NCBI GenBank assembly: GCA_903837355.1
Contig: CAILUI010000172.1
Span: forward strand, 1 to 64,000
DNA from: an uncultured Victivallales bacterium
Lineage (GTDB): Bacteria > Verrucomicrobiota > Lentisphaeria > Oligosphaerales > JAFGRS01
Reading direction: 5' to 3'
DNA: 64,000 nucleotides
Numbering within the stretch: position 1 is the stretch's first letter; every line of letters begins with the position of its first letter. Both the position numbers and the translations under genes were made by a program. The notes beneath the pieces were generated by a model. That model had not been told where the DNA came from. It ran no database searches and saw only the letters and a list, made by a program, of their open reading frames with translations. Positions 4,264 through 45,497 of the stretch are shown here, one piece after another.

Positions 4264-5070
4264 TCAAGCCCGACGCAGCGCCGCGGCCAGATCGGCAACG
4301 AAGTGGGCACAGGCTGCGATCCGTCCGTCGACGCTACCGGGTTCAGCCAGGCGCTGCACCAAGGCGCTGCCGACCACGACGCCGTCGGCGTGGGCTGCGA
4401 CGGCGCGGGCCATCTCCGGCGAAGAGATGCCGAATCCTGCGACCACCGGCACCGGGCTCACGGCGCGTACGCGTCCGAGCTGTGTCCCGAGGTCGTCCGG
4501 CAGTTCGCTGCGGCTGCCGGTGACCCCGGTGACGGTAATGCAGTAGACGAAGCCGCCGGCCTTCCTGGTGATCAGGGCGATCCGCTCCGGCGGTGTGGTC
4601 GGAGCGACCAGACGGATGACCGGCAGCCCGACCCGGTCGAAGGCCGGCAGGACCTCGCCCAACTCCTCGAACGGTACATCCACCAGCAGGATGCCATCGA
4701 TGCCGGCGGCGGCCGCCGCCGTGGCCAAGCGCTCCACGCCGTACTGGAAGATCACATTGTAGTAACTGAACAGCACCAATGGCACCGCGCTGACCTGCCG
4801 TACCTTTGCCACCATCTCCAGCACTCCGGCCAGCGTTGTGCCCGACGCCAGGGCCCGCTGGCTCGCCCGTTGGATGGTCGGCCCGTCGGCCATCGGGTCG
4901 GAAAACGGCACGCCCAACTCCACGATGTCCGTCCCCGCCGCGGCGATGGCGGGCACCAGCCGGGCCGTGGTCGCCAGGTCGGGGTCACCGGCACTGACAA
5001 AGCTGACGAGGGCCTTGCGTCCTTCGGCACGACATGTCTGAAAGGCTCGATCGATGCGGTTCATACCCAT
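4264..5070 (-). CDS. trpA: Tryptophan synthase alpha subunit
   Basis: KALVSFVSAGDPDL, VELGVPFSDPMADGPTIQRASQRAL, VTGVTGSRSELP. Confidence 0.97.
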   Translation of the reverse strand: MGMNRIDRAFQTCRAEGRKALVSFVSAGDPDLATTARLVPAIAAAGTDIVELGVPFSDPMADGPTIQRASQRALASGTTLAGVLEMVAKVRQVSAVPLVLFSYYNVIFQYGVERLATAAAAAGIDGILLVDVPFEELGEVLPAFDRVGLPVIRLVAPTTPPERIALITRKAGGFVYCITVTGVTGSRSELPDDLGTQLGRVRAVSPVPVVAGFGISSPEMARAVAAHADGVVVGSALVQRLAEPGSVDGRIAACAHFVADLAAALRRA

Positions 5071-5123
5071 CCTCTACTCTCAGGCCAGGCCACACTCGTC
5101 CCATGGGGAACCCGAAGGCTGTA

Positions 5124-5229
5124 GCGGTTTAGGCTGTAGGCTATTAGGTTACAGCACAAAGACGTGGACCTGGAAACACAAGATGCCCAGATGCATGACC
5201 TAACAGTCTACAGCCTGAATACCTAACCG
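5124..5229. repeat. Imperfect inverted repeat between trpB and trpA
   Basis: AGGCTGTAGGCTATTAGGTTA (5131-5151) versus reverse complement of TGACCTAACAGTCTACAGCCT (5196-5216), 18/21 identical; outer GCGGTT/AACCGC. Confidence 0.85.
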
Positions 5230-5253
5230 CCTTGGCGTCCTGTGGGACGCCTC

Positions 5254-6447
5254 TCAGGCCAGGCCCAGTTGGCGCTTGGCGTTGGCCACGTTGTCCATAT
5301 CCTTGTCGCCGCGACCAGACAGATTCACCAGCAGGATCTGGTCGGGGCGCATCCGCGGCGCCTGCCGCAGCGCCTCAGCCAGGGCGTGAGCACTCTCCAG
5401 GGCGGGGATGATCCCCTCCAGGCGGCAGAGCGTGTCGAAGGCCGCGATGGCTTCGCGGTCATTGATGGTGCAGTACGTGGCTCGACCCGTGTCGTGAAGG
5501 TAGGCGTGCTCGGGGCCGACGCCGGGATAGTCGAGCCCGGCTGACACGGAGTGGGTGTTGCGGATCTGTCCATCCTGGTCCTGCAGCAGATAGGTCTTGT
5601 TGCCGTGCAGGATGCCCACGCTGCCGGCGCTGATGCTGGCCGCATGTTCACCGGTCTCGATGCCCCGGCCGCCGGCCTCGACCCCGATCAGTGCCACCGC
5701 GGCATCGTCGATGAACCCGGCAAACAGCCCCATGGCGTTACTGCCGCCGCCCACACAGGCAATGGCCGCATCCGGCAGCCGCCCCTCTTGCTCCAGGATC
5801 TGCCGCCGCGCCTCCTCACCGATCACCGCTTGGAAGAAGCGCACCATTTCGGGATAGGGATGCGGTCCCGCCACCGTGCCAATGACATAGAAGGTGGTGC
5901 GCACCGTGGCCACCCAGTTGCGCAGGGCCTCGTTCATGGCATCCTTGAGGGTGCCCGTGCCACTGGCGACCGGGACCACCCGCGCCCCCAGCACCTGCAT
6001 CCGCCGCACGTTCGGTGCCTGGCGTTCGATGTCTTCGGTGCCCATGAACACGTCGCACTCCATGCCCAGCAACGCAGCGATGGTGGCGGTGGCGACCCCG
6101 TGCATGCCGGCGCCGGTCTCGGCGATCACGCGGGGCTTGCCCATGCGGCGGGCCAGGAGCCCCTGGCCGAGGGTGTTGTTGACCTTGTGCGCCCCGGTGT
6201 GGTTGAGGTCCTCGCGCTTGAGGTAGATGCGGGCGCCGCCGCAGTGCTCGGTGAGGCGTTTGGCGAAGTAGAGGGGCGATTCGCGCCCCACGTAGTCGCG
6301 CAGCAGCCCGTGAAACTCCGCCAGGAAGGCCGGGTCCTGCCGACTGGCCGTGAACACGCTCGTCAGTTCGTGCAGGGCGGGCATCAGCGTCTCCGCCACG
6401 TACTGTCCGCCGTAGATTCCGTAATGACCGTGCGTCGGCATCGTCAT
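5254..6447 (-). CDS. trpB: Tryptophan synthase beta subunit
   Basis: [20 protein letters not shown]-lysine motif and [15 protein letters not shown]. Confidence 0.98.
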
Positions 6448-7088
6448 CTCTCCGCTGCAGGTGCGCTCATTCCATCTGCCCGCGCCGCAGCCACGAAGCG
6501 GCGCACGCGGTCGTGGTCTTTACTTCCAGGCGCGGCCTCTACACCGCTGCTCACATCAACGCCCCAGGGCCGTACCTGGCGCAGGGCCTCCGCCACATTC
6601 TCCGGACGCAACCCCCCCGCCAGCAGGATGCGCCGGCGTTGGGCCAACTGCGCGGCGAGCGTCCAATCGCAGACCCGGCCCGTACCGCCCCGGCCGGCAG
6701 CGCTGCTGGCATCAACCACCAGGACCTCGCCCGGCAGCCCCGCGGCGCGCTCGACATCGGCAGGCTCCTGCAGGCTGACGACGCGCCAGGCGCGGGCCAA
6801 CCGGAACGCGGCCACCTCGTGGTCTGCCTCGTCACCATGGAACTGGACCACGTCCAGGCGTCCCGCAGCCACCGCCTCAGCCACGGCGGTCGCACTGGCA
6901 TTCACGACCACTCCAACCCGCAGGACACCGGCAGGCACCAAGGCGGCCAGCCCCGCCAGGCGCTCGCAGGACACGTAGCGCGGCGATTTCTCGTACAGCA
7001 CGAAGCCGACGCAGCCCGCGCCGGCCGCTACGGCGCAGGCGACATCTTCGGGACGGCAGAGACCGCAGATCTTAACGCACAGCGTCAT
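6444..7088 (-). CDS. trpF: Phosphoribosylanthranilate isomerase
   Basis: [26 protein letters not shown]...KSPRYVS; C-terminal [24 protein letters not shown]. Confidence 0.96.
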
Positions 7089-7897
7089 GCGGTCTCAGCC
7101 CCCTGCCCTGTACCTGCTGCCGCCAGTAGTTCGCGCAGAGCGTCGCCTGGCGCGGCGGCCCGCATCAGGCTCTCTCCGATCAGGAAGGCATCGGCGCCCG
7201 CTGCCTGCAGACGCCGGATATCCGCACCGTCGCGGATGCCGCTTTCGGCAACGCGGATCAGCCCCGCCGGGATGGCCGCCAGCAGCTCCGCCGTGCCCGC
7301 CAGATCGGTGCGGAAGGTCCGCAAATCGCGGCTGTTCACGCCGACGATGTGCGCGCCGCCGTCCAGCACCACCGCCAGTTCCTCACGGTTGTGCACTTCG
7401 CTGAGCACATCGAGCCCGATGGCCCGCGCCGCCTGGTAGAGGCGCCGATAGTCTGCCGGCGTCAGGGCGGCCGCGATCAGCAGGACCGCCGACGCCCCCC
7501 ATTCCCAGGCCTCCTCCAGTTGCACCGCATGGACGATGAAGTCCTTACGCAGGACCGGGATGGAGACCGCCTCGACGGCGCTGCGCAGGACCTCTGGATG
7601 ACCCTGAAAGTAGTGCGGCTCGGTCAGCGCCGAGAGGGCTGCAGCCCCCGCTGCGGCCAACTCGATAGCCAGCTCACGGGGCCGGAAGTCGGCCCGGATG
7701 AGGCCCTTGGAGGGCGACGCCTTCTTCAGTTCGGCGATCACCCGCACGGTTCCCCCCGGCGCTCGGCGCAATGCCGCCGCAAACGCCGGACGCAAGCGCG
7801 TGGCAGGGCGGACCGGTCGCGGCCCCGGCAGGCCGTCCGGGTAACGCTGCGCCAGGTCCTGACGCGTGCGCTCGACAATCTGTTCGAGGAGAGTCAT
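7085..7897 (-). CDS. trpC: Indole-3-glycerol phosphate synthase
   Basis: VIAELKKASPSKGLIRADF, VLRKDFIVHAVQLEEA, IVGVNSRDLRTF. Start set at MTLLEQIVERTRQ, 4-nt overlap with trpD. Confidence 0.96.
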   Translation of the reverse strand: MTLLEQIVERTRQDLAQRYPDGLPGPRPVRPATRLRPAFAAALRRAPGGTVRVIAELKKASPSKGLIRADFRPRELAIELAAAGAAALSALTEPHYFQGHPEVLRSAVEAVSIPVLRKDFIVHAVQLEEAWEWGASAVLLIAAALTPADYRRLYQAARAIGLDVLSEVHNREELAVVLDGGAHIVGVNSRDLRTFRTDLAGTAELLAAIPAGLIRVAESGIRDGADIRRLQAAGADAFLIGESLMRAAAPGDALRELLAAAGTGQGAETA

Positions 7898-8910
7898 TTC
7901 CCGTGGCTTCCCCGTAGCAGTGCTTCCAGCTTCGCTTGCGCCGCTCCGGAGTCGATGGCGGCCGCGGCCAACGCAATGCCTTCCCGGAGTTCCTCGGCCT
8001 TGCCGCCCGCCACGATGGCGGCGCCGGCGTTGAGCAGCACCGCCGCCCGCAGCCCGCCGCGCACCGAGCCGTCGAGAATGCCGCGCAGCTTGGCCGCGTT
8101 CTCTTCGGGCGTGCCACCGGCCAGATCGGCGAAGGGGAAAGACTCGCCCAGCAGCAGGTCGGCATCGACCTCGTAGGTACGGACCGCGCCATCGCGCAGT
8201 TCGCTGACGCGGGTACTGCCGCAGGGACTGATTTCGTCCAGACCGGGCTGGCCATGGACGACAAAGGCCCGCCGGCAACCGAGGTGGCGTAGCGCCTCGG
8301 CGAAGACCTCGGTCAGGTCCGCCGCGTAGACCCCCAGAACCTGGCCCGTGGCCCCGGCTGGGTTAGTCAGCGGCCCGAGCATGTTGAAGATCGTCCGGAT
8401 GCCCAACTGTCGTCGTGCCGGCATCACGTACTTCATCGCCGGATGCATCGCCGGTGCAAACAGGAAGCCGATGCCGTGCTCCTGCAGGCACTGCTCCATG
8501 ACCGCCAGCGGACACTCCAGGTTGAAGCCGAGAGCGGCCAGCACATCGGCCGAGCCGCACTTGCTGGAGACAGCGCGATTACCGTGCTTGGCGACGCAGA
8601 CTCCCGCCCCGGCAGCCGCAAAGGCAGAGGCCGTGGAGATGTTGAAGGTCCCCGCGCCGTCGCCGCCGGTGCCACAGGTGTCGACCACATGCTGCGCTCC
8701 CGCGTCGATCATGGCGGCATGGCGGCGCATGACCGCCGCCGCGCTGTAGACCTCGGCCACAGTCTCGCCTTTCATGCGCAACGCGGTCAGGAACGCCCCG
8801 ATCTGTGCATCGCTGGCCTGCCCCCCCATAATGAAGTTCATGGCGACCGTGATGTCGCGCTCGCTGAGGTCGCGGCGGGCGATGAGCTGGTTAAGGATGG
8901 CAGTGAACAT
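7894..8910 (-). CDS. trpD: Anthranilate phosphoribosyltransferase
   Basis: VDTCGTGGDGAGTFNISTASAFAAAGAGVCVAKHGNRAVSSKCGSADVLAALG; start set at MFTAILNQLIARRDLS. Confidence 0.97.
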   Translation of the reverse strand: MFTAILNQLIARRDLSERDITVAMNFIMGGQASDAQIGAFLTALRMKGETVAEVYSAAAVMRRHAAMIDAGAQHVVDTCGTGGDGAGTFNISTASAFAAAGAGVCVAKHGNRAVSSKCGSADVLAALGFNLECPLAVMEQCLQEHGIGFLFAPAMHPAMKYVMPARRQLGIRTIFNMLGPLTNPAGATGQVLGVYAADLTEVFAEALRHLGCRRAFVVHGQPGLDEISPCGSTRVSELRDGAVRTYEVDADLLLGESFPFADLAGGTPEENAAKLRGILDGSVRGGLRAAVLLNAGAAIVAGGKAEELREGIALAAAAIDSGAAQAKLEALLRGSHGK

Positions 8911-8918
8911 GGTGGCTC

Positions 8919-9530
<612 letters not shown>

Positions 9531-9546: not shown

Positions 9547-11025
9547 CTACAGACTCAGCCCGGCTGCCGCCAGCTCGAGGGCCCGAACCATGCCGCGGGC
9601 TTTCTGGCAGGTTTCCTGGTACTCCTTGTCGGGATCGGAGTCATAGACGATCCCAGCCCCGGCCTGGACCGCCACGCGGTGACCGTCGATCTCCAGAGTG
9701 CGGATGGTGATGGCGAGGTCCATGTTGCCATCGTAACCGATATAGCCAACCGCCCCGCCGTAGGCACCACGCGGCTGCGATTCCAGCTCGTGGATGATCT
9801 GCATGGCACGGATCTTCGGAGCCCCACTCAAGGTTCCGGCCGGGAACGTCGCCCGGATCAGGTCAAAGGCGTCCAGACCCGCCGCGAGCGTGGCCTGCAC
9901 CGTCGAGACGATATGCATGACGTGACTGTAGCGCTCGATGGTCATGAAGTCCTTCACCTGCACACTCGCCGGCGCCGCCACCCGCCCCAGGTCGTTGCGG
10001 CCCAGGTCCACCAACATCAGGTGCTCGGCCCGCTCCTTCTCGTCCGCCAGCAGTTCGTCGGCGAGGGCCCGATCCTCCTGTTCCGTGGCGCCGCGCGGCC
10101 GGGTGCCCGCGATCGGACGCAACTCGGCACGGTCGCCGGTCAGGCGGACCATGACCTCGGGGCTGGACCCCACCAGCAGATGCTCGCCCACCTTCAGGTA
10201 GAAGGTGTAGGGCGAGGGGTTGATCAGGCGCAGCGCCCGGTACAGCGTGATCGGATCCGCCGGCAGCTCGCCGCTGAAGCGCTGCGACAGGACGACCTGG
10301 ATGATGTCCCCCTCGAAGATCAACTCGCGCGCCCGCCGCACCATCTCCCGAAACTGCTCTGGAGTGACGTTGGAGCTGAGCGCGGGCGCGGCCCCGGTGA
10401 GTCGCGGCCGCAGATCCACCGGGGCCTGCAGGCGCTCCTCGATGGCCGCAATGCGCCGCACCGCGTCCTGGTAGGCAGCCTTCGTGGAAGCGAAGCGGTC
10501 CGGGCGCGCTCCGGCCACGATCTTCATGGTGTGCCGCACATTGTCGAAGACGATCATGGTGTCGGTGAGCATGAAGCAGGCGGTCGGTCCGGACGGCGCC
10601 TGTTTGGGTTCCGGCAGGCGCTCAAACTCGCGCACCGTCTCGTAGTTCATGAAGCCGACGGCGCCGCCAATGAAACGCGGCAACTCCGGCAAGAGTACCG
10701 GCGCGGTCTGGGCCATGATCGCGCGCAGGGCCGTAACGCCGTGGTCAGCACTGCTCAGAACCGTGCGCTCGCCATTCGCGTCCTCCACCATCGCCTGGCC
10801 GTTCTCGACGGTGAACAACGTGTGCGGCTGCAGGCCGATGAACGAGTAACGGCCCCAGCGCATCCCCCCTTCCACGCTCTCCAGCAGGAAAAGGCGGGTG
10901 TCCCGTGCAAAGCGTGCCGCCACCGAGACCGGCGTCTCCACGTCGGCCAGATGCTCACGGTAAACGGGGATCAGATTGCCCCGCGTGCACAGGCTCTCGA
11001 ATTCCTCATAGGTCGGTGTGATCAT
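9547..11025 (-). CDS. trpE: Anthranilate synthase component I
   Basis: YTFYLKVGEHLLVGSSPEVMVRL, RPIAGTRPRGATEQED, FPAGTLSGAPKIRAMQII. Start set at MITPTYEEFESL. Confidence 0.97.
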   Translation of the reverse strand: MITPTYEEFESLCTRGNLIPVYREHLADVETPVSVAARFARDTRLFLLESVEGGMRWGRYSFIGLQPHTLFTVENGQAMVEDANGERTVLSSADHGVTALRAIMAQTAPVLLPELPRFIGGAVGFMNYETVREFERLPEPKQAPSGPTACFMLTDTMIVFDNVRHTMKIVAGARPDRFASTKAAYQDAVRRIAAIEERLQAPVDLRPRLTGAAPALSSNVTPEQFREMVRRARELIFEGDIIQVVLSQRFSGELPADPITLYRALRLINPSPYTFYLKVGEHLLVGSSPEVMVRLTGDRAELRPIAGTRPRGATEQEDRALADELLADEKERAEHLMLVDLGRNDLGRVAAPASVQVKDFMTIERYSHVMHIVSTVQATLAAGLDAFDLIRATFPAGTLSGAPKIRAMQIIHELESQPRGAYGGAVGYIGYDGNMDLAITIRTLEIDGHRVAVQAGAGIVYDSDPDKEYQETCQKARGMVRALELAAAGLSL

Positions 11026-11095: not shown

Positions 11096-11136
11096 CAAAA
11101 GGAAGGCCCGGGCTGGCGGAATCCGCGGCCCGGGCC
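11096..11136 (-). terminator. Candidate trp leader (attenuator) terminator hairpin
   Basis: On the minus strand: GGCCCGGGC-CGCGGATTCCGCCA-GCCCGGGCC followed by TTCCTTTTG. The 9-bp perfect stem pairs 11105-11113 with 11128-11136; it sits about 70 nt upstream of the trpE start. Confidence 0.8.
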
Positions 11137-11155
11137 CCGAAACGGCCACACGGCA

Positions 11156-11215
11156 CTACGGTACGCCCCTGCCGCACCACCGCCACTGCCATACCGCCTG
11201 ACCTGCGCCGTACAT
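11156..11215 (-). CDS. Candidate trp leader peptide, MYGAGQAVWQWRWCGRGVP*
   Basis: Minus strand ATG TAC GGC GCA GGT CAG GCG GTA TGG CAG TGG CGG TGG TGC GGC AGG GGC GTA CCG TAG: three Trp codons in five, directly upstream of the terminator hairpin and trpE. Not in the ORF track because it is too short. Confidence 0.8.
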   Translation of the reverse strand: MYGAGQAVWQWRWCGRGVP

Positions 11216-11260
11216 CACTGCTCTGCCCCAAACCGTTGTTCTAGTGTTTCGCTGCAATAG

Positions 11261-11289
11261 AACATACAGGGCACGCCGCCACCCGTCAA
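11261..11289 (-). promoter_or_regulatory. Candidate sigma70-type promoter of the trp operon
   Basis: Minus strand TTGACG (11289-11284), 17-nt spacer, TATGTT (11266-11261), about 45 nt upstream of the leader ATG. Confidence 0.6.
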
Positions 11290-11503: not shown

Positions 11504-12601
11504 TCAGGGGCGAGGGCGCGTTCCCACATAGGCCTGGTAGTCGCGGTACCATTGGGCTGCCTTATCGCTGAGTTCGGGCCGGCCGTACTGGTAGTATCCC
11601 CAGGTGACGATCCGGTCGGCATACTCCGCTGCCAGTTCAAGCTTGCTCTTCAGCCTGTCGATGGGTACGGCCCGCCATGGGGCAGCCTTGACCGTGCTGT
11701 GGTGGACCCGCCCGTAACGACGCACGTACTCCTCCATGCTTGAGCATTCGAACTCGGCTGTCTCCACATTGGCCCAGAGGGTGGCGCCGGCAGTGTCGCA
11801 GGCAGCGCGCATAGCCGCGAAGTAGGGGCGGCGCTGCTCCATGGTGCAGAACGAGAAGTGTTCGCCACTGTCCTGGAGCATGATGATGTCGAACCTACTC
11901 AGCCTGATAAGGTCTGCCCAATAGGCCTGGTACTCCTCGGGCTCGTTGAACCTGAAGTCGCCAAACACGCGCTCCCGGTCAAGGATGAAGAAGGGCGACA
12001 AAGTAACTGGCTTGGCCGGCACAGCCTCCTTACACAGGCTGACCACCGCGGGGTACAGACGCCTGAGGTAGGCGTTCATGCTGTCCCAAGCCATGTAGAT
12101 CTCGTGGGGTACGTACCACGCATGGAAGGCAGGGTGGCTGCCGTAGCGTTCGGCGATGGTCTTCACGCTGGCACCGATGGCTTTGAGTTCCTTGTCCAGG
12201 TCAAGGTCACCGTACCAGAGAGGGCTGGCGCCCGTATCGACGATGACCTGCATCTTGCGCTCGGCGCAGAGGTCAAGGACCGTAAGCATCGGGTCCTCGG
12301 CCAGGGGCTTCGCGAAGGCGGGGGCAACATGGGAGATCCAGAGCAGGTCGAAGCCGATCGCCCGCTCATCGTCCAGTTGCTTCACCCACCCGGCCCGGTC
12401 CAGTGAGGGATCAAAGGGGCGCAGGTTGCCTGAGATGACGGGGGCGCAGCGCGGCCTCTTCGTTCCCTCCTTCGAGGCGGCCCCTTGCTCAGCGCCAGCC
12501 GAGCGGCCCAAGCCTATACCCGCCGTGGCGGCCGCGGCCGCCACGGTGCCGATGAATCCACGCCGGGTCAGCCGCTCGTGTCCGCTATTCCGAACCGACA
12601 T
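11504..12601 (-). CDS. DUF4434-like (TIM-barrel glycosidase-like) secreted protein with Tat-like signal
   Basis: N-terminal LTRRGFIGTVAAAAATAGIG twin-arginine signal; family assignment from overall sequence resemblance only. Confidence 0.6.
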   Translation of the reverse strand: MSVRNSGHERLTRRGFIGTVAAAAATAGIGLGRSAGAEQGAASKEGTKRPRCAPVISGNLRPFDPSLDRAGWVKQLDDERAIGFDLLWISHVAPAFAKPLAEDPMLTVLDLCAERKMQVIVDTGASPLWYGDLDLDKELKAIGASVKTIAERYGSHPAFHAWYVPHEIYMAWDSMNAYLRRLYPAVVSLCKEAVPAKPVTLSPFFILDRERVFGDFRFNEPEEYQAYWADLIRLSRFDIIMLQDSGEHFSFCTMEQRRPYFAAMRAACDTAGATLWANVETAEFECSSMEEYVRRYGRVHHSTVKAAPWRAVPIDRLKSKLELAAEYADRIVTWGYYQYGRPELSDKAAQWYRDYQAYVGTRPRP

Positions 12602-42548: not shown

Positions 42549-45497
42549 TCAGGAGGGCGTCTCGGCAACCGTCTTACGGATCGCCTGGTTCCGTGTGCTT
42601 TGCGGGCAATCGGGGCCGCGGCCCAGCGCCCACGCGACCTGCTGGTTCAGGTCCTGGATGCGGAAGGGCTTGTGGATGTACGCCAGCACTCCGTCCTCCA
42701 GCATGCCCTGCACGTCACCATCCAGACTGTAGCCGGTGGCGAGGATGGCTCTGAGTTGGGGATTGATCACGCGCATGGCGGCGAAGGCGTCGCGGCCATT
42801 CATCTTCGGCATGTTCATGTCCAGAATGACGAGGTCGATGTCTGGCCATGACCTGCGGTAGCAGTCGACGGCTTCACTGCCGTCAGTGGCCGTGAGCACG
42901 GAGTGCCCCTGGCGACGCAGCAGTTTGGCGGTGAACTCTCTGACGATCTCTTCGTCGTCCGCGATCAGAATCCTGGCGTGGGCAGTCGGGCGAGGCGCGG
43001 GCTCAGCGCTGCCTTCCGGCCCCGGTGGCTCCGCTGCGGTCCGCCCCTCTGGCCCGTCCTGCCGCAGCAGCGGGAGGAGAAGGGTCATGGTGGTGCCTTT
43101 GCCGAGTTCACTATGGACCGCAATCGCGCCGTGATGGTTGACCACGGTGCCGTGGACGGAGGCTAATCCCAGACCCGTGCCTTTGCCGGGTTCCTTCGTC
43201 GTGAAAAAGGGCTCGAACAGGCGCGCTTGGGTCGGCGCGTCCATGCCCGTTCCGGAGTCGGTCACCGCGATGCGCACATAGTCTCCGGGAGCCATATCGA
43301 ACCGGCTGCTGGCGCAGCGTTCCCGGTCCAGCGTGACGAGGTCCGTCGCGAACCGGAGTTCACCCCCCGTCGGCATGGCATCGCGGGCGTTCAGCCCGAG
43401 ATTGAGCAGTGCATTGACCAACTGCGTCGGATCGCCAATGGTCGTCGGCGGCTGGGCGTCAAGGCACTGGCGGATGCGGATGCGCTTGTCGACACTGCGT
43501 TCAAGCAGAGCGCTGACCTCGGCCACACACTCATGGATGTTGACCGGTACCGTGCGGTACTTGCCCTTACGCGAGAACGCCAGCAACTTGCTGGTCAAGT
43601 CGCTGCTCCGTGCACACAACCGGAGAATGCCCTCGACGGCGCCGCGGGGTTCCGCATTTTGGGTCATCGTCAGCAGCAGGTCCGCGTAGTTCACGATGCC
43701 AGCGAGTTGGTTGTTGAAATCGTGGGCAACACCGCCCGCGAGCTGCCCGATCGCTTCCAGCTTCTCGGACTGTCGGAGGCGCTCCGCGCTCTCGCGTAAG
43801 GCCGCCTCGGCTTGCTTGCGTTCGCTGACGTCGCGGACGATGGCCCACATCGCCGACGGCTGTCCGTCGGCATCGCGGATCAGCGACGTGCGCAGCTCCA
43901 CCGGGAAGAACATCCCGTTCTTGCGCCGGTACTCCTTCTCATAGACGCCGGAGAAGCCTTGCGGCAGGATCTGCTCCTCGACGATGCGCGACTCGAAAGC
44001 GCGCCACTTCTCCGGGGTAAGGTCCTGGTAGGTTACCTTGCTCAACTCGGCCGCGCTGAAGCCGAGCATGTCACGGTAGCTCTGGTTGCACTCCAGAATA
44101 TGTCCCGCCATATCGACCAGCACGAAGGCGTCCGTCATGCTCTCGTGGAGCCGTCGGTACTTCTGTTCCGATTGCCGCAGGGCCTCTTCCGCCCGCTTGT
44201 GCTCAGTGATGTCGCGCACAAAGGTCACCAACTGCCCACCTGCACCCGGCTGGTACTGGACGCTGACCTCCACGTCGTACTGGGTTCCGTCCTTGCGGCG
44301 GTGCCGTGACTCGAAACGGTCCTGGCCCCGCGCCACGATCCTGTCGATGTGCTGAGCCACGCCGCCAACTCCCTCGGTGACGGTCAGATCGGGAATGCGC
44401 ATGGCCAGCAGCTCTGCCCTGCTGTAGCCGCTCATCCGGCAGTAGGTCTCGTTCGCCTCCAACAGACGCCCCTCTGTGTCTGTCTGCCAGAAGCCGTCCA
44501 TGGCCGTCTGCAGGATGGTCCGGAGCCGGTTCGCATCCCCTTCATGACGCTTCCACGAAAACCACAGAAACCCGGTGGCGATCCAGACACCCGCCAGGAA
44601 CAGCAGCACCATCAACAGGGTGGTCAGACGGTCTACTCTCCACTGCGCCAGGTAGTCTTCCTCGGCCAGGCTGACCACCACGAAGAGGGGTGCCCCAGCG
44701 ACCCGCTGGAAGGTTAGCGTCCCCCTGGATTGGCTGGTGGCCGCCGTGACGGTATGATCCCTCTGCATTGGCTCTGCGCCGAAGGTCGCCAGAAGCTCGC
44801 TGGAGTAGGTTCGCGCGCCGACGGCCGGCGTCCCGTCGTCGGCCGCGGCCGGATGGCTTGCCACGAAGCCGCCGTCCGTGTCGCAGAGCGTCAGCGTTCC
44901 GCCTCTGCCCACGTCGAAGCCTGCGAGTACCTTCTGGAAATGCTCAAGGAAGACGGGGGCGACCACGACGCCTCCAAAGCTGCCATCGGGTTGCTGGTAA
45001 CGTCGGGCGGAGGTGATCACCCAGCGGCGAGTGAACTTGCCGACGATGGGCTTCGTAACGAACACCCCAGCCTGCGGATGGTCCCGGAGGAACGGGAAAT
45101 ACGGACGATCCGCGAAGCTTGCGGCCGGATCCGCGGACGGGTTCCCAAGAATGACGGCGCCGTCCGCATCGCTGACGCGGAGGGCCACCGCTTCCGGGAG
45201 GAGCGCCTCCTCACGGGCGAGGAGCCCATCGAGGCGCGTACGATCGATGCCGCCGGTCGCCAGTCCCCTCTCCATCTCGCCGGTGACCGAGAGCAGCGTG
45301 TGGTCAATGCGCGTGAGGGTGGAGGCGAGGTTCTGGTCGATGGCTCGGGCCAGGTTCTGGCTCTGGACCTCGGCGTTTCGCGTGGCGTAATCACGGCTGA
45401 CGACCAGGCTACGAGCGGCCAGCAGGATAGCGCCCAGGCTGACGGCGATAGCCACCACCAGATAGGCCTTGCCAAAGTGCAGTCTGCGGGTGCTCAT
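42549..45497 (-). CDS. Hybrid sensor histidine kinase (Cache-like N-terminus, PAS, HisKA, HATPase, REC)
   Basis: PAS-type segments, phospho-acceptor GGVAHDFNNQLAGIVNYADLL, GTGLGLASVHG, and receiver DLVILDMNMPKMNGRDAFAAM. Confidence 0.93.
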   Translation of the reverse strand: MSTRRLHFGKAYLVVAIAVSLGAILLAARSLVVSRDYATRNAEVQSQNLARAIDQNLASTLTRIDHTLLSVTGEMERGLATGGIDRTRLDGLLAREEALLPEAVALRVSDADGAVILGNPSADPAASFADRPYFPFLRDHPQAGVFVTKPIVGKFTRRWVITSARRYQQPDGSFGGVVVAPVFLEHFQKVLAGFDVGRGGTLTLCDTDGGFVASHPAAADDGTPAVGARTYSSELLATFGAEPMQRDHTVTAATSQSRGTLTFQRVAGAPLFVVVSLAEEDYLAQWRVDRLTTLLMVLLFLAGVWIATGFLWFSWKRHEGDANRLRTILQTAMDGFWQTDTEGRLLEANETYCRMSGYSRAELLAMRIPDLTVTEGVGGVAQHIDRIVARGQDRFESRHRRKDGTQYDVEVSVQYQPGAGGQLVTFVRDITEHKRAEEALRQSEQKYRRLHESMTDAFVLVDMAGHILECNQSYRDMLGFSAAELSKVTYQDLTPEKWRAFESRIVEEQILPQGFSGVYEKEYRRKNGMFFPVELRTSLIRDADGQPSAMWAIVRDVSERKQAEAALRESAERLRQSEKLEAIGQLAGGVAHDFNNQLAGIVNYADLLLTMTQNAEPRGAVEGILRLCARSSDLTSKLLAFSRKGKYRTVPVNIHECVAEVSALLERSVDKRIRIRQCLDAQPPTTIGDPTQLVNALLNLGLNARDAMPTGGELRFATDLVTLDRERCASSRFDMAPGDYVRIAVTDSGTGMDAPTQARLFEPFFTTKEPGKGTGLGLASVHGTVVNHHGAIAVHSELGKGTTMTLLLPLLRQDGPEGRTAAEPPGPEGSAEPAPRPTAHARILIADDEEIVREFTAKLLRRQGHSVLTATDGSEAVDCYRRSWPDIDLVILDMNMPKMNGRDAFAAMRVINPQLRAILATGYSLDGDVQGMLEDGVLAYIHKPFRIQDLNQQVAWALGRGPDCPQSTRNQAIRKTVAETPS

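Follow-up and report, generated by a model that had tools for sequence, protein, structure and literature searches.

Is the region just upstream of trpE in an uncultured Victivallales bacterium an attenuator of the tryptophan operon, and if so, of what kind? The window (the whole 64,000 nt stretch of DNA analysed) belongs to a 9.6-Mb Victivallales (Lentisphaerota) assembly, and the closest named trpE records are from Lentisphaerae, Victivallales and 'Verrucomicrobia' MAGs (72–81% identity). A complete trpEGDCFBA operon lies directly 3′ of the candidate attenuator on the same strand, with trpG to trpA spanning 4264–9530. The trp genes, assigned by Pfam, and the next gene 5′ of the leader are:

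4264–5070, minus strand: trpA
5254–6447, minus strand: trpB
6444–7088, minus strand: trpF
within ORF 7085–8278, minus strand: trpC
within ORF 7894–9114, minus strand: trpD
8919–9530, minus strand: trpG
9547–11025, minus strand: trpE, first gene of the operon (PF00425, PF04715)
11504–12601, minus strand: gene for a DUF4434 protein, ending 367 nt before the hairpin described below

Between the DUF4434 gene and trpE, the following features were located:

11289–11284, minus strand: −35 box, TTGACG (TTGAC is likewise placed in relatives L008, L009, L012, L016, L035 and L048)
11266–11261, minus strand: −10 box, TATGTT, after a 17-nt spacer; it opens the conserved block TATGTTCTATTGCAGCGAAAC
11238–11263, minus strand: putative TrpR operator, GTTCTATTGCAGCGAAACACTAGAAC, an imperfect inverted repeat (GTTCTA..TAGAAC) across the −10 box and presumed +1
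11215–11156, minus strand: leader peptide trpL, MYGAGQAVWQWRWCGRGVP*, 19 codons, of which 9, 11 and 13 are TGG
11203–11171, minus strand: segment 1, including the Trp codons, the partner of segment 2
11161–11144, minus strand: segment 2, CCGTAGTGCCGTGTGGCC, across the stop codon, where a ribosome on the stop would cover it
11136–11123, minus strand: segment 3, GGCCCGGGCCGCGG, terminator 5′ arm and antiterminator 3′ arm
11137–11104, minus strand: intrinsic terminator hairpin (3:4), 34 nt, −28.7 kcal/mol, nine perfect G-C pairs
11103–11096, minus strand: T-rich tail, TCCTTTTG (also written TTCCTTTTG), an interrupted U tract

The promoter, leader ORF, TGG codons, hairpin and tail all lie where a sequence-only reading of this DNA had placed them. 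The TTGACG-N17-TATGTT pair is the sole promoter-like match within 2.8 kb (0.3 expected from shuffles). The hairpin begins 20 nt after the leader stop on the minus strand, and between the two lie TGCCGT (11155–11150) and GTGGCC (11149–11144). The built-in terminator scan misses the hairpin, its loop-length and T-content rules being unmet, and our own scan was substituted; this found three terminator-like places as strong in the 64 kb, the hairpin included. Two features of the leader count against an attenuator, namely that the U tract is interrupted (TTCCTTTT) and that no good Shine-Dalgarno sequence was found ahead of the leader ATG. The hairpin might instead be the 3′ terminator of the DUF4434 gene, unconnected with trp, as the two share one strand and the gene stops 367 nt away. 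However, a conserved promoter and leader intervene before the hairpin, and in relatives the leader-plus-hairpin unit stays beside trpE, making this explanation extremely improbable.

Taken alone, the window makes an attenuator only suggestive. When upstream regions are shuffled, about 5% of them yield a leader with three Trp in seven codons (P ~0.05), and the two strands of the 64 kb together hold nine short ORFs that are comparable. The minimum free energy of the leader as a whole is not lower than expected from shuffled sequences (z +0.95) and is uninformative. The 6-bp antiterminator proposed earlier, GTGGCC with GGCCGC, is plausible, but the 2:3 pairing of the window is not above chance relative to shuffled sequence (P 0.37–0.78). 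The earlier 1:2 stem fares somewhat differently: TGCCGT is present and the 1:2 duplex (−30 kcal/mol) is marginally stronger than in shuffles (P 0.013–0.048), but the stronger helix takes in more of the leader than had been named, with AGGCGGTATGGCA... paired with ...TACCGTAGTGCCGTGTGGCC. These values are also what would be seen if the Trp-rich ORF and hairpin were accidents of a GC-rich leader and the operon were controlled at initiation only, through a TrpR homologue. The significance of the attenuator has to be drawn from relatives.

If the leader is a regulatory device, then its Trp codons and stems might be expected to be kept beside trpE in related genomes. From the class Lentisphaeria, 99 trpE loci with at least 300 nt upstream were collected, and a locus was scored when a short ORF with at least two Trp in six codons was followed by an intrinsic terminator. 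By this rule, 68 of the 99 loci carry a Trp-cluster leader and terminator, and inspection by eye adds two further loci (L019 and L048). The leaders of the 68 loci have a median of 20 codons, with a median of 43 nt from stop to terminator. The Trp clusters include WGWWRSG (L033, L034), WWWRP (L048), WWWSP (L035), GWYWRR (L009), GWWAWR (L010), DWWWRR (L012) and WRWQWRKP (the Victivallis type, L037), as well as SWRWR, WSWSWR and AWWWR; the full leader of the cultured Victivallis vadensis DSM 14823 (L037) is MLNNRIQSVIKGWRWQWRKPAMASFVAL. Outside the Trp cluster, the peptides differ widely among relatives. TGG-TGG spacings of 3–14 nt in the zone from −420 to −90 are in frame in 238 cases versus 45 and 56 in the other two frames. 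Upstream of this zone the corresponding figures are 38/24/30, and control spacings of CCA (16/25/17) have no in-frame excess. The in-frame excess of TGG points to codon structure, beyond what stem structure alone would give.

The stems are also kept. Segment pairings were compared with within-locus, composition-matched dinucleotide shuffles in 40 thinned loci, and the 2:3 energy was below the shuffle mean in 93% of them (Fisher P 5.5e-18), with 1:2 pairing giving P 2.6e-5; as the thinned loci are still partly related, these exponents are not to be taken literally. A control region past the terminator paired no better than its shuffles (P 0.78). A locus's own segment 2 and arm 3 bind each other more strongly than swapped pairs do (z −9.6), and because the swapped-arm comparison is open to a confounding effect of GC content, the within-locus shuffles and negative control were run. 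The window's own family provided only two other full-length leaders, those of L033 and L034, which are the nearest relatives. In both, the sequence surrounding the stop codon (CGTAG) is kept, as is the arm GGCCCGGGC-GCGG, while neighbouring positions have changed. Both also have a stretch homologous to segment 2, and each forms a strong 2:3 helix (−34.7 and −36.3 kcal/mol, P 0.017). The Trp codons and stems are thus conserved, and the 1:2 / 2:3 / 3:4 logic put forward in the sequence-only reading is borne out by the TGG periodicity and by mutually exclusive 2:3 and 1:2 pairings above shuffles across the clade.

When the RNA was folded with a ribosome masking part of the leader, a ribosome stalled on the Trp codons gave the antiterminator once RNA polymerase had made arm 3, and a ribosome at the stop codon gave the terminator. 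The equilibrium fold of the full-length leader mostly favours the terminator, which counts against an attenuator and means that antitermination would have to be kinetic, as in E. coli. A leader of this kind might also work at the level of translation, either through reinitiation or because the trpE start is sequestered, or it might serve in trans, in the form of a small RNA or peptide. Both terminated leader RNA and free peptide would indeed arise, and trans roles exist elsewhere, for example that of Sinorhizobium peTrpL (PMC7298713). The hairpins, however, end in U tracts well before trpE and leave its start uncovered, and the antiterminators are conserved, so that a role without termination seems highly improbable.

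It is the clade-wide comparison that settles the case in favour of ribosome-mediated transcription attenuation, and the element in the window very probably controls the trp operon in this way. Starting near 11255, RNA polymerase would be trailed by a ribosome on the 19-codon leader. With ample charged tRNA-Trp, the ribosome would reach the UAG at 11158–11156 and mask segment 2 (11144–11161), leaving arm 3 to pair with arm 4 and transcription to stop at 11137–11104. With charged tRNA-Trp scarce, it would stall at the UGG codons 9–13, and the free segment 2 would pair with segment 3 to form the antiterminator; the terminator would then come too late, and trpEGDCFBA would be transcribed. If the leader were not translated, 1:2 would form and termination would be the default. 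A TrpR homologue probably represses initiation as well, from an operator overlapping the −10 box.

This operator is part of a block, TATGTTCTANTGTATCGAAAC (11238–11266, minus strand), that recurs in trpE promoters across families in which TrpE has only 63–81% identity with that of the window. The site is present in 15 loci (L003, L008–L012, L014, L016, L017, L019, L021, L033–L035 and L048). Within the 9.6-Mb genome, a search allowing up to two mismatches found the block only at trpE, plus one poor two-mismatch match elsewhere. Taken from GTTC onward, the block forms an imperfect palindrome of 18 bp that overlaps the −10 box and in the window extends to GTTCTA..TAGAAC. Its left half (consensus GTTCTAGTG) resembles the half-site bound by TrpR in E. 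coli, GTACTAGTT. Encoded in the genome is a TrpR homologue (G000:C36:2329-2580) that matches PF01371 above the Pfam cut-off (E 3e-19) and has TIGR01321 TrpR as its best NCBIfam model, at a score under the equivalog cut-off (50.5 versus 67.25 bits). For 13 of the 15 loci with the site, the genome has a PF01371 match, and the other two genomes are incomplete (68% and 83%); among the 149 genomes sampled from the class, only 30 have such a match. No operator-like motif was found upstream of the genome's TrpR gene, leaving autoregulation without support. In genome G070, a TrpR-family gene (G070:C44:44670-44909) is directly 5′ of trpE (43161–44576) on the same strand, and a Trp leader was not seen in its family (f19).

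Conservation, uniqueness and co-occurrence with PF01371 make it likely that the promoter block is a TrpR operator, to which TrpR would bind at the trpE promoter, and suggest an E. coli-like dual control by TrpR and attenuation. The sequence-only reading had recognised the attenuator but missed both this likely operator and the variants found in the clade. Three loci (L008, L014 and L017) have the site 53–84 nt ahead of trpE and no attenuator, so operator and attenuator come apart in evolution. The conserved operator, the encoded TrpR homologue and these three loci would suit control at initiation only; a chance origin of the leader in the window is nevertheless very unlikely, given that in-frame Trp codons, the terminator and 2:3 pairing are conserved clade-wide.

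In mechanism, the window element would be a classical trp attenuator in a little-studied lineage. Searches of Rfam (Trp leader, T-box and other families) at gathering and relaxed thresholds gave no match, which places it outside every Rfam family though it would work like a Trp leader. The Yanofsky-type trp attenuator is that of E. coli trpL, with which the window element shares a short leader with Trp codons, a terminator ahead of trpE and 1:2/2:3/3:4 alternatives, the 2:3 pairing being supported at the level of the clade, and likely also the TrpR operator over the −10 box. It differs in having a separated W-x-W-x-W in place of tandem WW, 19 codons and very GC-rich arms, and sequence homology is undetectable (no Rfam match). 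The trp attenuators described for Corynebacterium and Streptomyces have double or triple UGG repeats, GC-rich terminators and complementary GGCC-type triples (PMC1262725). The window likewise uses GTGGCC / GGCCGC / GGCC, but it belongs to another phylum and the match may reflect convergence through GC richness.

While the window has the simple single-terminator form, more unusual arrangements are confined to relatives. In nine loci (L018, L020, L022, L036, L061, L072, L076, L089 and L090), two complete units of leader plus terminator follow one another. Those of L061 are recent copies with identical terminators, whereas the units of L072, L076, L089, L090, L022 and L036 differ from each other. 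About 25 loci have one leader followed by two terminators, and L097 and L100 have three (double or triple: L023–L025, L027, L030, L062, L064, L068–L071, L074, L078, L082, L083, L085–L087, L091, L094, L096–L098, L100, L102 and L104; L060 was left out as doubtful). Tested across 13 thinned loci, segment 2 is complementary to both 5′ arms (2:3A, P 1.9e-4; 2:3B, P 1.1e-5). It is bipartite, with a 2a part such as CCGTC or CCGCC and a 2b part such as GACCGGGT, CCGGGG or CACTCCG. Covarying pairs were found for 2a/3A (CCGTC/GACGG, CCGCC/GGCGG) and for 2b/3B (GGCCGGGT/ACCCGGCC, CCGGGGC/GTCCCGG, CACTCCG/CGGAGTG). Given the order 2a-2b-3A-3B, both helices at once would make a pseudoknot; alternatively, 2b:3B may supplant 2a:3A after RNA polymerase has cleared terminator A, when hairpin A would be harmless. 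In folds of L023 and L027, hairpin A sits within the 2:3B loop.

The complementarity to both arms suggests, with fair probability, that this clade evolved one leader whose bipartite segment 2 matches two, sometimes three, terminators, so that one stalled ribosome would disarm each in turn and repression would be multiplied, with other relatives duplicating whole attenuators in tandem. No report of a single-leader, multi-terminator design with segment 2 matching each terminator was found in the literature searched. Salmonella mgtCBR has two leader ORFs per leader, as do L018, L022, L036, L061, L072, L089 and L090 (the window does not), but its ORFs sense different signals and typical intrinsic terminators are missing, whereas the relatives' leaders are both Trp-rich with intrinsic terminators (PMC3641672). 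The gammaproteobacterial rimP leader has two consecutive terminators like the double-terminator relatives, but a Trp leader peptide is not described for it (PMC2965389).

Beyond the class, 40 other Verrucomicrobiota loci were searched, and leader-plus-terminator arrangements were found only in family f34, L131 and L140. Trp leaders with terminators, unlike most of the phylum sample, are seen in L130, L131, L134–L138 and L140 (f34, one f30 and one f44 genome), and f34 has double terminators too. In these non-Lentisphaeria cases, the operon was possibly transferred together with its attenuator. Two MAGs labelled Proteobacteria (L038) and Thermodesulfobacteriota (L039), whose trpE has about 52% identity, carry leaders that are almost the same (MKAYDGIILRWWWSGLI / MKTYDGIILRWWWSGLI) and a terminator, and the antiterminator of L039 is significant.

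In the literature searched, leader-peptide attenuation is known from Proteobacteria and Actinobacteria, together with a few Firmicutes (PMC2965389, PMC1262725); the 2010 survey that added a Firmicutes case gave only the first two phyla for previously known leader-peptide systems (PMC2965389). No paper on trp regulation in Lentisphaerota was found in a search of openly accessible literature, which does not include the 2010 comparative survey of Lopatovskaya et al. (cited in PMC4833913). Within Lentisphaeria, attenuation appears to be the rule in several families, part of them with a probable TrpR operator, and it is rare in the remaining sampled phylum. The clade offers a natural series on one operon, from no attenuator through single and double or triple terminators to tandem attenuators, allowing tests of how attenuators arise, multiply and disappear, and of whether extra terminators deepen repression.
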